Origin: a virus
DNA length: 33,590 bases
Reading direction: 5' to 3' (one strand)
Virus record (IMG/VR): IMGVR_UViG_3300037119_008521
Span: 1-33,590 of that record
Each line of letters opens with the position of its first letter. Positions within the stretch are counted from its first letter, which is position 1. Below are positions 14,339-31,934 of this stretch, piece by piece. The notes under the pieces are model-generated. The model worked only from the letters and a program-made list of their open reading frames with translations, was not told the DNA's origin and did not search any database. The translations under genes and the position numbers were made by a program.

Positions 14339-17002
14339 CTAATTGACTTTCGCAATAGTTAAAAAGTTGTTCGTAGCCGTTGTGTCTAGCGACAAGGTGC
14401 CAGTCTCAGGACCGCCCTGGAATGTAATCGCATCGCCCGCCACGAGTTTAACAAGCGTGCCGCCATTCACCACAAGCAAGTCACTTGCCGCCGTGCCGTA
14501 TTGCCTAACTTGAACAACCGCCGTGCCGTTAACATTTATGAGAAGGCGCATGTAAACGCCTGCCGCTACGGAAGCAGCTTGGGTTATAAGTTGACCTTGA
14601 AGTTGGTAAAACCCAGGCTCCGGGCAAGTCCAAGTTGTCGAACCATTATAAGCGCCATGGGTATCAAAAACCGTGGTAAGTGGAACCGACGTGGTGCTTG
14701 TTGTTAGTGAAGTGCCAGCGCTATTTTGACCCCGAAACGCAACCACCTGACCGCCCGCAAGGGTTTGCGGAGTTTGTACTTTGTTGATGGTTAAATAGTT
14801 TTCGTTAGCGAAGGGGTCTAGCCCAACCGAAACTGAGCTATAACCAACAACTTTGATTGTGTCGCCCGCATTGAACCAGCGTGAGATTGACCCCGCCGCT
14901 GAGTACTGAGATGCCACGCCTACGCCGTTTGACCTAACGGTTGAGATTTGAGTCGCACCATTTAGGAATAGAGCCGCCGCCCATCTTTGAGCGGTGGTTA
15001 GTGTGACACTATTAGACGTGAGCAAATAGTTAACATTGTAAAAACCGGATTCTGGAAATGTATACGACGTTCCACCAAAAGAACCCGTAGTATCGGTGAC
15101 AGTGACGAACGGAACATCTGAGCCGCCGGTTCCAATGGTGGTCGCCGCTGCGTTTGTTCCATTGAAAGCAATCAGGCGATTTCCGTAGTCACTCGAAACC
15201 GCCACGTTAGAAGACCAACCAGAAATTGGCAAAAGAGCGGTAAAACGTATCCAATCGCCATTGGCAAGGGCGCTACCGTTTAAAACGGCGGTGCCGTTTG
15301 AATCAATCGCAAATGAAACGGTAGTTGTAGAGCGGTAAAGAACACCACCAGCCTTTTCGTTTGTACCGGTGTCGAACCACATTACGTTTCCAACGGTAGC
15401 CCCATCGGTAACTACAGAAGACATTTTAGTCGTGTCTATAGAAAGTCCACTAGGCAATGAATACACGACTGGACTAGCGGCACCGGCGCCCGTGTAGACG
15501 GTGTAGACTTGTAGCTCAATAGAGTCGCCAACCCTTCGGTAGCGGCCTGAATTTGTCGAAGTAGTACCACCGTTTGTTATTGTCGGCGTGTAGCTAATCC
15601 AATCGCTAACCGGTACTCCGCTCGCAACTACTGCGGGCCCAACCGAAACAGAATCAAAGTCCCAAGTCCAAGCGCTCGCGTTAGTTGTCGCAATGTGGAA
15701 AATAAGTCGGTAGCTAGTAGAATTCGAGTTAGTTTGAAACTGCGAAATCACCTTACCAGAGCCATCTAAAAATGACTGCGACGGGTAAATGATTTGCGCA
15801 TTCGTAACGTCGTATAAGTAAATGGCGACATCCGAGGGGCTTGCATAAGTCGCTTGGTTATAGGCAAATGCCGCTGAGCCAAGATAAGAAGACTGCACTG
15901 TTAAAACTTGGGCTTTGTCTTCGTTCGAAATCGTGAAATCGTAACTAACCCCTTGGCCTTGGCAATTGGACGCGCCCTTGGTGAGCGTAAACATGGCCGG
16001 TGCTTTTAGTGGGTTGGTCGTGTTGCGTGTGATTGTAACCGTTGGCGATCCACCAGTTCCATCGACGGGAATAGCCGCCGCTGCATCTAAATAAGTTGCC
16101 CATCCGGTTGTTGAGGCCTCAGCGCTTCCATTGGTGATGTAGTTAACGCCCGACGATGAGCCACCAAGTGAACCCCAAGCGCCGTTGATGTAACCTTCAA
16201 ATGAATTGGAATCAGAGTTGCCGCGAATCATGCCGTTTGCAGGCGATGAGCGTTGGGCGGTTGTGCCGTATGGAATCGTTACCGAGCCGGTGCCGGGGAT
16301 GATTGGGTCAGTCGTAATTGCGATTGTCGGGTTTCCAGATACACCGTCACCATTTGTAATAGAAACTTGGTTTGCGGTACCAGTGATAGTCCTAGCTGCT
16401 ACAGTGCCAGCGCCAGTACGGGCAACAAGGCCAGAGGTGGCAAGTGCTGCTAGTGCAGTGAGATCCGCATCAATGGGTTGTTTGCCGTCAATCTGTGTTT
16501 GAATTGCTGAGGTGACGCCATTCACGTATCCAAGCTCTGTCGCAGTTGTCGTGGCTGGAGCGATAAAACCAGATCCATCACTCACAAGAGCTCTACTTGC
16601 GGTAACAGCCGCAAGCTTGCTAACAGCTATTGCTGCGCTGGCATTGATGTCAGCGTTAACAATGGCGCCGACAAGGTTGAGTTTCGAATACGCAATCGCC
16701 GCTGAGGCTGAGATGTCAGCGTTAACAACGGACCCTGCAATCGATAGCTTTGCGTATGTGACGTTTGCATCAAGAATCTTGGCCGTTGTTACAGCGTCAG
16801 AAGCAAGCTTTGGCGCTGTGACCGCACCATTCGCAATAGTTGCTGTAGTAACCGCGTTGTTGGCAATGCCACCCGCTGCAATCGGAAGTCCCTTACCACT
16901 ACTGTGATCATGATCGTCGATAGCGTTAAAGGAGTTTGTGATCTTATCAACGTAATCAACATCGTTAATTGCCGGTGGGTTTACGCCGTTAATATTTGCC
17001 AT
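14339..17002 (-). CDS. Tail fibre with repeat stalk and tandem C1q-like heads
   Basis: The 887-residue protein has an N-terminal part with DDHDHSSGKG (29-38) and then degenerate repeats of the NAVTTAxI / ANGAVTAxKL type up to about 140. Such repeats form trimeric stalks. Next are an LGYVNGVTSAIQTQIDGK segment, a NYITNGSAEASTTGWATY module (about 285-450) seen in many fibre proteins, and a beta-rich SDWISYTPTITNG module. Two related C-terminal jelly-roll domains follow, each about 137 residues and each ending NYLTINKV or NFLTIAKV. These resemble C1q/TNF-like heads and probably bind host receptors. GGGGA precedes the ATG. Confidence 0.82.
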   Translation of the reverse strand: MANINGVNPPAINDVDYVDKITNSFNAIDDHDHSSGKGLPIAAGGIANNAVTTATIANGAVTAPKLASDAVTTAKILDANVTYAKLSIAGSVVNADISASAAIAYSKLNLVGAIVNADINASAAIAVSKLAAVTASRALVSDGSGFIAPATTTATELGYVNGVTSAIQTQIDGKQPIDADLTALAALATSGLVARTGAGTVAARTITGTANQVSITNGDGVSGNPTIAITTDPIIPGTGSVTIPYGTTAQRSSPANGMIRGNSDSNSFEGYINGAWGSLGGSSSGVNYITNGSAEASTTGWATYLDAAAAIPVDGTGGSPTVTITRNTTNPLKAPAMFTLTKGASNCQGQGVSYDFTISNEDKAQVLTVQSSYLGSAAFAYNQATYASPSDVAIYLYDVTNAQIIYPSQSFLDGSGKVISQFQTNSNSTSYRLIFHIATTNASAWTWDFDSVSVGPAVVASGVPVSDWISYTPTITNGGTTSTNSGRYRRVGDSIELQVYTVYTGAGAASPVVYSLPSGLSIDTTKMSSVVTDGATVGNVMWFDTGTNEKAGGVLYRSTTTVSFAIDSNGTAVLNGSALANGDWIRFTALLPISGWSSNVAVSSDYGNRLIAFNGTNAAATTIGTGGSDVPFVTVTDTTGSFGGTSYTFPESGFYNVNYLLTSNSVTLTTAQRWAAALFLNGATQISTVRSNGVGVASQYSAAGSISRWFNAGDTIKVVGYSSVSVGLDPFANENYLTINKVQTPQTLAGGQVVAFRGQNSAGTSLTTSTTSVPLTTVFDTHGAYNGSTTWTCPEPGFYQLQGQLITQAASVAAGVYMRLLINVNGTAVVQVRQYGTAASDLLVVNGGTLVKLVAGDAITFQGGPETGTLSLDTTATNNFLTIAKVN

Positions 17003-30148: not shown

Positions 30149-30460
30149 ATGTCAACCAAAAGAGAAGATAAGAAAAACGCCAAATACCAACAAGTCCAGG
30201 CCTTGCGCGCAAGTGGTGTGTCCCTCACTGAAGCATGCCGCAAGGCGCATATGGGGCTCTCCACGTACTACAAACTAAACCGACCCGCGAAAACAGGCTT
30301 CAGCTCTCTTGCTGAACATGTTGTACCAACCGTCAACATCATCGACGCCGGTGGAACCAAAAGAGCTCCAATCAAACGCACAGTCACAACATCAAAAGTC
30401 TTCATCATCTGCACCACCACCGACAACCTCGCATCCGTACTACAAGGACTGCAATCATGA
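30149..30460 (+). CDS. HTH protein, resolvase/transposase-type helix-turn-helix
   Basis: The 103-residue protein has a basic start (MSTKREDKKNAKYQQVQALR) and a HTH in LRASGVSLTEACRKAHMGLSTYYKL (about 19-43), like those of resolvases and Hin-type proteins. The rest (VNIIDAGGTKRAPIKRTV, SKVFIICTTTDNLASVLQGL) may form a small beta-alpha dimer domain. GAGGAG precedes the ATG. It is the second gene of the Cro-like unit and probably a regulator. Confidence 0.65.
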   Translation: MSTKREDKKNAKYQQVQALRASGVSLTEACRKAHMGLSTYYKLNRPAKTGFSSLAEHVVPTVNIIDAGGTKRAPIKRTVTTSKVFIICTTTDNLASVLQGLQS

Positions 30461-30798
30461 AAGCCGTACACGTAATCCTAAACGCCGACATGCGCACCAT
30501 GCATAAAGGCATGGGAGCACTTCTAGATAAACAAGGTATCAAACGACTTGCCACCGATGAGGCCGTTATCTTCATCAACCGCGCTCGTGATCGCCTGAAG
30601 TCCTACAGCTATAATGGCGTGATTTCATACGTGCGGTTTACTGGAAGCGATAAACGCGCAATCGACCTATCCGCGATTGATGAAATCGCACGAGCGTTCA
30701 ACTCAGATGGCACACTTGATTACAATCGCGCACTTAAGAAACATCTTGAGAAACGCCTCAAGGTAAAGAGCGAGTCTAGTGAACTGGATGTTCTTTGA
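30457..30798 (+). CDS. Unknown protein in the Cro-like operon
   Basis: The 113-residue basic protein has IKRLATDEAVIFINRARDRLKSY, a YVRFTGSDKR strand and a C-terminal helix (NRALKKHLEKRLKVKSE). The ATGA overlap with the previous gene shows co-translation. No family recognised. The basic character fits a nucleic-acid-binding role. Confidence 0.65.
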   Translation: MKAVHVILNADMRTMHKGMGALLDKQGIKRLATDEAVIFINRARDRLKSYSYNGVISYVRFTGSDKRAIDLSAIDEIARAFNSDGTLDYNRALKKHLEKRLKVKSESSELDVL

Positions 30799-30962
30799 GC
30801 ACACAACCTGAAATAGCCGGAATAACCCTACTGCGTGCACTGTTCGGATTCACTACAGACATGTCTGACGCAGAATGCGTGCTTCAAATATATAGAGAAT
30901 ACGTCAGGCTAGAAGAAAGCCTTCTAGCCATGGCTAAGTACCAAGGGGTAGCTGCCCAGTAA
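30795..30962 (+). CDS. Small protein with TTG start
   Basis: The frame runs from TTG at 30795 to TAA at 30962 and gives 55 residues (MSTQPEIAGITLLRALFGF, ending MAKYQGVAAQ). It is helical with an acidic middle (TDMSDAECVLQIYREYVRLEESLL). The TTG overlaps the preceding TGA (TTGA), continuing the coupled arrangement of this unit. The sequence looks like a real protein, though short. Confidence 0.5.
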   Translation: MSTQPEIAGITLLRALFGFTTDMSDAECVLQIYREYVRLEESLLAMAKYQGVAAQ

Positions 30963-30982
30963 CTACCTGCGGCGCATCCCGC

Positions 30983-31159
30983 CTACCAAGGCAAATGACC
31001 ATTAAGGCCAAACGCACGTATCAAATAAAACACCACCGCAACAACCACCACCACGTTAAAGATATTCTTCATACGCGCATCCATCGGCACGATACTGTTC
31101 ACCGCCCATAATAGAACGCCTACGACAATAAGAAATACTAATATACCTATGATACTCAT
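30983..31159 (-). CDS. Small two-span membrane protein
   Basis: The 58-residue protein has two membrane spans: IIGILVFLIVVGVLLWAV (3-20) and NVVVVVAVVFYLIRAF (35-50). A loop with SIVPMDARMKNIF joins them and the end is GLNGHLPW. The pattern P-M-x-x-x-[IM]-K-N followed by a valine-rich span occurs in widely distributed small bacterial and phage membrane proteins. A TATACT box (31172-31167) lies exactly 6 bases before the ATG and there is no ribosome site, suggesting a leaderless mRNA. The longer open frame to 31300 would run into the structured RNA locus and is rejected. Confidence 0.72.
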   Translation of the reverse strand: MSIIGILVFLIVVGVLLWAVNSIVPMDARMKNIFNVVVVVAVVFYLIRAFGLNGHLPW

Positions 31160-31191
31160 CGAGGCAGTATAGCCTACTTGCAGCAATGTGC

Positions 31192-31221
31192 TTGTTAAGT
31201 TTAGTTCACTTGTGATATCTG
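31192..31221 (+). promoter_or_regulatory. Candidate promoter for the structured RNA
   Basis: TTGTTA (31192-31197) and TATCTG (31216-31221), preceded by TGA (an extended -10), are 18 bases apart. Transcription would begin near 31228, exactly where the first predicted helix begins. Confidence 0.4.
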
Positions 31222-31227
31222 TGGGGG

Positions 31228-31473
31228 GTGCAAGGTGCATGTGAAGCTGTGGTGAGCAAGTACCTTCGGGTAAGATTAGCGCCACTGGAAACATGCACAA
31301 GGTCGGGTCATGGCCGATACCTTGTCATCGCCGGAGTCGCGCCCCGCCTTGCACATTGTGGTAGTCCCGCAAGGGCCAAATGGCTTAAGCCGGGTGTGAA
31401 GCCATATTGGCGAAAGCCTCTGATCTCTCACCCGGTGCCACTCTATCCTCTGTCAAGTTCTTTTTACTGGCAC
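31228..31473 (+). ncRNA. Candidate structured non-coding RNA, unknown class
   Basis: There is no convincing gene here, but many exact complementary segments. P1 is GTGCAAGG (31228-31235) with CCTTGCAC (31347-31354). P2 is GTGCATGT (31235-31242) with ACATGCAC (31291-31298). P3 is GTGG/CCAC (31249-31252/31282-31285) around TACC-TTCG-GGTA (31261-31272). P4 is AAGGT/ACCTT plus CGG/CCG (31299-31323). CCC-GCAA-GGG is at 31366-31375. A 12-pair helix joins 31375-31386 to 31399-31411 with one bulge. CCGGGTG (31390-31396) pairs with CACCCGG (31429-31435), which forms a pseudoknot with the 12-pair helix. GTGCCA pairs with TGGCAC (31435-31440/31468-31473). Three stable tetraloops (UUCG, GCAA, GAAA) occur only on the + strand, which sets the orientation. 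Some helices compete, so the exact fold is open. No tmRNA, RNase P, group I or hammerhead core was recognised. Confidence 0.75.
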
Positions 31474-31496
31474 AATATAACGCTGCGTGGTATAGC
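31467..31496 (+). promoter_or_regulatory. Extended -10 promoter for the 31503 gene
   Basis: TGGTATAGC (31488-31496) is an extended -10 box. CTGGCA (31467-31472) lies 18 bases upstream. The box ends 6 bases before the ATG at 31503, so a leaderless transcript is expected. A second box, TATAAC (31476-31481), could serve as an alternative with a leader of about 15 bases. Confidence 0.5.
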
Positions 31497-31502
31497 CGCC
31501 AT

Positions 31503-31712
31503 ATGAACGAACTCGATATCCACCTTCGGGTAAAGAACTACCTCGCGTTCCTAGAGTTCCACCCCAACGGACACACCGTCGAACAACTCGTAGCCATCAT
31601 CAACAATGACCCCGCCACCACCAATGAAGAAAAACAACGCATCATAAAAGATATGATCGAAACACTAGAGCGCGGCGGCGGTAGGCGATACGCTATTCCA
31701 CTTCGGAAGTAA
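31503..31712 (+). CDS. Small helical protein, unknown
   Basis: The 69-residue protein starts MNELDIHLRVKNYLAFLEF and contains HTVEQLVAIINNDPATTNEEKQ followed by a helix and a basic C-terminus (GGGRRYAIPLRK). The layout is reminiscent of a small winged-helix fold, but no family is certain. A longer frame to 31407 overlaps the structured RNA and is rejected because the ATG at 31503 stands right behind a promoter. No ribosome site. Confidence 0.62.
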   Translation: MNELDIHLRVKNYLAFLEFHPNGHTVEQLVAIINNDPATTNEEKQRIIKDMIETLERGGGRRYAIPLRK

Positions 31713-31718
31713 GGCCCG

Positions 31719-31934
31719 ATGAACACTAAACCAAAATCCACCTGGATCATCTTCTACAGATTCCACCACGAGAAGACCTACAGACCCACACCCGCCATAT
31801 GCACCACCACCAAGGCCCTTGCGCAGTTCATGAATGATATGAAAAAAGACTGCACCTTTAAGATCACGCGGGCGCGCGTATCGTACACAGCGCTTAGTAA
31901 GTCAGATACATCCGCACTACTGGCTAGTATCTAG
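31719..31934 (+). CDS. Small basic protein, unknown
   Basis: The 71-residue protein starts MNTKPKSTWIIFYRFHHEK. It has a beta strand near the start and a helix (TTKALAQFMNDMKKD) and is basic overall. It follows the previous gene by 6 bases with AAGG just upstream of the ATG. Function unknown. It ends 4 bases before the convergent lysozyme gene. Confidence 0.58.
   Translation: MNTKPKSTWIIFYRFHHEKTYRPTPAICTTTKALAQFMNDMKKDCTFKITRARVSYTALSKSDTSALLASI

Follow-up and report, generated by a model that had tools for sequence, protein, structure and literature searches.

An RNA encoded at positions 31228 to 31354 on the + strand of virus record IMGVR_UViG_3300037119_008521 (IMG/VR) almost certainly belongs, judged from sequence comparison, to a new structured noncoding RNA family found in unrelated tailed phages. 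The stretch analyzed, here called the window, comprised 33,590 bases (positions 1 to 33,590 of the record) and carries genes for capsid, portal, terminase, and endolysin, the first two of which encode proteins unmatched in a set of 50,697 phage records. The family has three members so far, namely, the window copy and one homologue each in a 153-kb phage contig (L055) and a 101-kb phage contig (L041). The first-pass annotation had read this region as an undescribed structured RNA, and the homologues, their covariation, and the absence of the RNA from Rfam all bore this out. The extent that it had assigned, 31192 to 31473, was reduced to the 127 nucleotides given above, which are the only supported part.

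Identification of homologues

Because paired letters drift while loop letters stay, the loop letters were the ones searched for. Viral contigs were scanned with the pattern GAGCAAG N12 AGATTAGC, which represents both sides of the P3/P3b internal loop (31254 to 31260 and 31273 to 31280) and leaves the hairpin free, so that identity at these 15 letters was imposed by the search. The scan returned 47 loci, about the chance expectation, which were scored with a covariance model derived from window positions 31228 to 31354 alone. With this window-only model, the homologues reached 55.8 bits (L055) and 51 bits over the whole length (L041), and none of the remaining 45 loci attained E = 10. Those 45 nonhomologous loci served as a built-in control, carrying as they do the identical 15 searched letters. 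In the unselected flanks, the two homologues were identical to the window at 32 and 30 of 44 letters versus at most 14 of 44 in the controls, and both adjoining stems were present in none of the control loci.

Blastn searches with the region gave no significant match among phages and plasmids, and those with all three sequences gave none among 50,697 named phages and 72,556 plasmids (phages only for the L041 core; a blastn search of this type would overlook members as distant from each other as L041 and the window). No match came from an exact 18-mer scan of viral contigs and no third homologue from a variable-gap scan, and the two matches of a 19-letter pattern in a genome scan were both due to chance. 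A model of all three sequences found no further member in 48 phage records, 398 and 386 bacterial genomes (two phyla), and 12 named phages.

Covariation and conserved fold

The three sequences aligned without gaps over 70 columns on the 5' side and 25 columns on the 3' side and had five helices in common, in which 93.5% of the base-pair cells were standard and 12 of 31 pairs were changed on both sides. When the partners were slid by 1 to 3 columns, only 31 to 46% of the cells remained paired, and the observed pairing was attained in 0 of 500 shuffles. Given the alignments only, RNAalifold returned the same helices on both of them; in one (A6) the cores had been joined by hand and the variable arm left out, and the other (A5), which agrees with it, was an untouched MAFFT alignment. 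Since P1, P2, P3b, and P5 lie outside the searched letters, the choice of pattern cannot account for their covariation. The covariation check that had been suggested for homologues thus found the pairings kept via compensating changes, and compensatory changes in support of one secondary structure are the criterion by which a conserved structured RNA is recognized.

The P1 arms of the three sequences (GTGCAAG/CTTGCAC, GGATAGG/CCTATCC, and GTAAAGG/CCTTTAC) differed by double changes at four of seven pairs with none broken, and pairs broke when arms were exchanged between sequences. P2 was doubly changed at two of six pairs, with two mismatches in L041. All 24 cells of the eight P3 pairs were paired, with G-C replaced by A-U and U-G by U-A in L041. 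In P3b, which reads UACC-UUUU-GGUA in L055 and UGGG-GAAA-CUCA in L041, three of four pairs were doubly changed and the tetraloop was swapped among the three sequences (UUCG, UUUU, and GAAA). P5 was the weakest helix: two of six pairs were doubly changed, 78% of the cells were paired, four cells were unpaired, and pairing was poor in two of the three sequences. The two exact 8-base helices of the first-pass annotation (31228 to 31235 with 31347 to 31354 and 31235 to 31242 with 31291 to 31298) recurred in the homologues with compensatory changes.

These comparisons showed a predicted architecture in which the closing stem P1 surrounds, in order, a long P2-P3-P3b arm interrupted at two internal loops, then a variable arm, and finally a small hairpin (P5) on the 3' side (Table 1). 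About 40 letters were near invariant and clustered around the internal loops, among them GAAGCU, GAGCAAG(U), and AAGAUUAGCGCCA, while stems and terminal loops varied by compensation. The full variable region spanned 32 nt in the window, 106 nt in L055, and 59 nt in L041 (alignment A5).

Table 1. Positions of the conserved RNA, its parts, its homologues, and the adjacent gene
Feature	Position	Strand or contig	Remarks
Thivi_2564-family small membrane protein gene	30983-31159	-	NF041949, E 2.7e-16; start at 31159
Whole conserved RNA	31228-31354	+	127 nt, closed by P1; homologues L055, L041
P1, 5' strand	31228-31234	+	7 pairs with 31348-31354; eighth pair 31235/31347 in window only
P2, 5' strand, TGCATG	31236-31241	+	Pairs with 31292-31297, CATGCA
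P3, 5' strand, CTGTGGTG	31247-31254	+	Pairs with 31280-31288
Internal loop, 5' side, AGCAAG	31255-31260	+	Identical in all three
P3b hairpin, UACC-UUCG-GGUA	31261-31272	+	
Internal loop, 3' side, AGATTAG	31273-31279	+	Identical in all three
P3, 3' strand, CGCCACTGG	31280-31288	+	One bulged U
P2, 3' strand, CATGCA	31292-31297	+	
Variable arm, window-specific hairpin, CAAGGTCGG..CCGATACCTTG	31298-31324	+	Homologues differ in length and sequence
P5 region, GCCGGA-GTCGCG-CCCCGC	31330-31347	+	Conserved loop GUHGCG
P1, 3' strand	31348-31354	+	
Homologue L055	4283-4483	153-kb phage contig	201 nt, P1-closed
Homologue L041	1361-1514	101-kb phage contig	154 nt, P1-closed

Strand, coding potential, and folding energy

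U-G pairs occurred in P3 of all three sequences, and one G-U pair each occurred in P3b of L041 and in P2 of L055. Because such pairs would be A-C mismatches on the opposite strand, the RNA is assigned to the + strand, which speaks against a symmetrical DNA site. The three-sequence model scored the window at 129 bits on the + strand and 3.5 bits on the - strand, so that the strand asymmetry noted in the first reading is supported by G-U pairs and model scores alike.

The sole long frame across the region (92 aa, 31228 to 31506) had a codon usage of -0.14 bits per codon versus +0.08 to +0.40 for the large genes and scored lowest in codon fit, under every listed phage gene. It had no match in Pfam, in PHROG, or by tblastn, and a peptide-pattern search was likewise empty. 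This frame is closed in both homologues, and no reading frame is open across the window, L041, and L055. Since no frame is common to the three sequences, the region does not specify a protein, and the initial statement that it lacks a credible gene held. A coding reading of EA-VSK...RLAPLET, one frame in all three sequences, was rejected; the L055 frame is flanked by stops and has no start codon. Third codon positions of that frame were conserved like the other positions in all three.

Folding energy did not set the region apart. For 31192 to 31473 (282 bases), z was -0.57 and 58 of 200 shuffles were equally or more stable; both strands were alike in folding energy, and a 70-nt local-fold scan gave about 20 hairpins of comparable strength per strand in the window. 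The unusual stability previously attributed to this stretch was therefore not upheld. The minimum-energy fold of the isolated 127-nt window copy was a different one, favored by about 4 kcal/mol; L055 folded alone gave P1, P2, P3, and P3b (z = -3.1). At the level of sequence, it is the homologues, not the energy, on which the reality of the RNA rests.

Sequences 3' of the conserved RNA

Both homologues stop at P1, and positions 31358 to 31473 had no counterpart in either. A covariance model of this 3' part, with its 12-pair helix and GCAA and GAAA loops, found no match elsewhere. The 12-pair helix, which had been counted as part of the RNA, folds well alone and is absent from both homologues. 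Among the three tetraloop hairpins originally proposed, the UUCG hairpin (31261 to 31272) falls within the conserved RNA, and those with GCAA and GAAA loops are absent from the homologues. Two further proposals found no support: the H-type pseudoknot, since no extra pairing was conserved in all three sequences, and a promoter ending at the first helix, since no consensus site was found there. No promoter or terminator was recognizable at any of the three loci. Directly 3' of the RNA, the segment from 31358 to 31443 forms separate stable hairpins with the GCAA and GAAA loops (z = -3.5 for 31389 to 31436).

Genome setting and distribution

In the window, the RNA region is flanked by the Thivi_2564-family gene (-) and a 69-aa frame (+, start at 31503), so that the RNA copy, with the Thivi_2564-family gene encoded divergently beside it, sits between divergent genes; the next frame begins 149 nt downstream. 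The 12-mer ACCTTCGGGTAA occurs twice, at 31262 to 31273 (in P3b) and at 31522 to 31533 (start of the next frame), probably by chance. The L041 and L055 copies each take up all of the space that separates two genes of one strand, and P1 of L055 shares bases with the preceding gene's stop codon. The next gene, short and on the same strand, starts 30 nt (L041) or 40 nt (L055) from the end of the RNA. No alignment was obtained between the genes that follow the RNA in L041 and L055, and the following genes of all three phages matched no family. Other gene-free gaps lie near the homologues (4791 to 5050 in L055, z = -1.6; 814 to 965 in L041) and possibly hold other RNAs.

The L041 and L055 phages are distant relatives of each other, and both carry a T5 A1-like protein. 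The window phage has little in common with both beyond a generic helicase, and apart from this helicase no partner protein was common to all three. With L041 it also has in common a tail-fibre-like protein (window positions 14339 to 17002, - strand, versus 61819 to 63795 of the 101-kb phage, G020; 34% identical over 665 aa), which hints at related hosts. Relatives of the window phage were found via endolysin, the gene at 30457, and the capsid protein, and the RNA was not found in the recovered sequence of its close relatives. In the closest of these (L002/G001), the module from 30149 to 31934 is replaced by a single 268-aa frame, which marks a swap site for accessory genes. By its distribution among these sequences, the RNA behaves like an accessory gene.

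Comparison with known RNA families

None of the 4,227 models of Rfam 15, which include tmRNA, RNase P, 6S, group I and II introns, small ribozymes, and riboswitches, matched at gathering score, and at E values of up to 10 (window) or 5 (homologues) only isolated matches to unrelated families appeared, far below gathering score. The earlier failure to place the RNA in a known class thus withstood a covariance-model check that was negative for all three sequences. The words GGGAA...GGUG...CGCCACUG occur in the same order in the cobalamin riboswitch (RF00174), which we take to be a superficial likeness of words only; RF00174 itself gave no match at E values of up to 10 (window) or 5 (homologues). 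No description of the RNA was found in the literature within open-access scope, most subscription journals falling outside it.

We therefore treat the RNA as a new family within a known kind, phage RNAs that are structured but have no assigned function; GOLLD and ROOL are the named examples. Both occur in phages and prophages, and neither a function nor a protein partner is known for them (PMC12286853); the RNA described here resembles them in these respects. They differ from it in length, being multidomain RNAs of about 600 nt or more (659 nt for ROOL env-120 and over 800 nt for GOLLD; PMC12286853), whereas the P1-closed units measure 127, 201, and 154 nt. The setting differs as well: GOLLD and ROOL often lie near tRNA islands (PMC12286853), whereas the window and the 101-kb record are free of tRNA genes and the only one in the 153-kb record lies about 23 kb from the RNA. 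The manA and wcaG motifs of cyanophages, which tend to precede metabolic genes (PMC2864571), are likewise structured RNAs of large phages on the same strand as the next gene; here, in contrast, the next genes are unrelated small genes of unknown function, and Rfam gave no match. Like the c4 antisense RNA (RF01695; named in PMC2864571), this is a small structured phage RNA, but none of the three sequences had an Rfam match.

Possible function

Near-invariant loop letters on freely varying stems suggest that function resides in the loops, whether through binding or through catalysis. We propose that the product would act as a mature RNA, made together with or alongside the phage's small accessory genes, whose stems would form a scaffold in which only pairing matters. 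The putative binding surface is the asymmetric internal loop, AGCAAG/AGAUUAG, which is invariant; its partner may be a component encountered by all three phages, for example, a conserved protein of the host, a part of the ribosome, or an RNA. Taken as a whole, the statement that this is a new RNA family and a stand-alone, trans-acting, loop-binding RNA is somewhat more probable than not. The stand-alone, trans-acting mode taken by itself is a tentative assignment, somewhat short of an even chance; it ranks first among the modes considered because the next genes are unrelated, no expression platform is visible, and no partner gene is common to the three phages. The way in which the RNA occupies its gap in L041 and L055, as a separate gene would, also favors this mode.

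Next in the ranking, and on the unlikely side, stands a cis-acting leader (a riboswitch or protein-binding leader), in which the invariant loop would sense a metabolite or protein and control the small next gene. The position directly before a short same-strand gene in L041 and L055 fits such a leader, as does an architecture reminiscent of aptamers, in which the loops are invariant and the stems vary, and the P1 3' strand of L041 (CCUUU) could pair with the ribosome site AAAGG. That pairing, however, is missing in L055 and the window, no terminator follows P1 at the three loci, and in the window the next frame begins 149 nt downstream. Moreover, because the next gene differs from phage to phage, a role in controlling one specific downstream gene is less likely, although with three members only this reflects two unrelated next genes and a third that, like them, matched no family. 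Among the other roles put forward in the first-pass annotation (ribozyme, decoy, and packaging RNA), that of a packaging RNA is also less likely, because unrelated phages carry the RNA whereas the sequence recovered from the closest relatives does not contain it. Third in rank, and improbable, is a new RNA with self-cleaving or other catalytic activity that would process the phage transcript containing it: its small size, its near-invariant letters at internal loops, its interchangeable tetraloops and stems, and its arbitrary positions in unrelated phages would suit a ribozyme, but it matched no self-cleaving family in Rfam and no catalytic site can be named. Several small ribozymes need a pseudoknot, and none is conserved here.

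Two readings would do without an RNA altogether. A DNA element, such as an operator array, single-strand origin, or recombination site, might be expected between divergent genes, where the window copy lies and where CAAGG/CCTTG occurs five times within about 145 bases. These copies fall mostly in the P1 and variable-arm strands and are not conserved in the homologues, which themselves are not between divergent genes, and the conserved U-G pairs and compensatory changes favor one RNA strand; a DNA element is accordingly very improbable. An operator or iteron reading of the repeats was rejected, the word being common genome-wide (147 occurrences in the window versus 72 expected; ACAAGGT, 15 versus 3.9). 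Chance hairpins with no function would agree with the unremarkable z score, the abundance of similar hairpins in the window, and the close relatives that are without the RNA. Coincidence of this kind is the least probable reading of all, given the identity of the unselected flank letters in both homologues and the 12 doubly changed positions that are still paired.

Significance

Few well-defined phage RNA families exist, and on folding energy and Rfam alone the present one would have been dismissed. Loops that stay nearly invariant among phages with almost nothing else in common usually point to a conserved target or a conserved chemistry. It is conceivable, at a little under even odds, that the RNA represents a wholly new functional class, either catalytic or an aptamer-like RNA that would capture a conserved host component, which has spread among unrelated phages. 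The alignment and covariance model allow a direct search for the family in metagenomes and tests of it in the laboratory.
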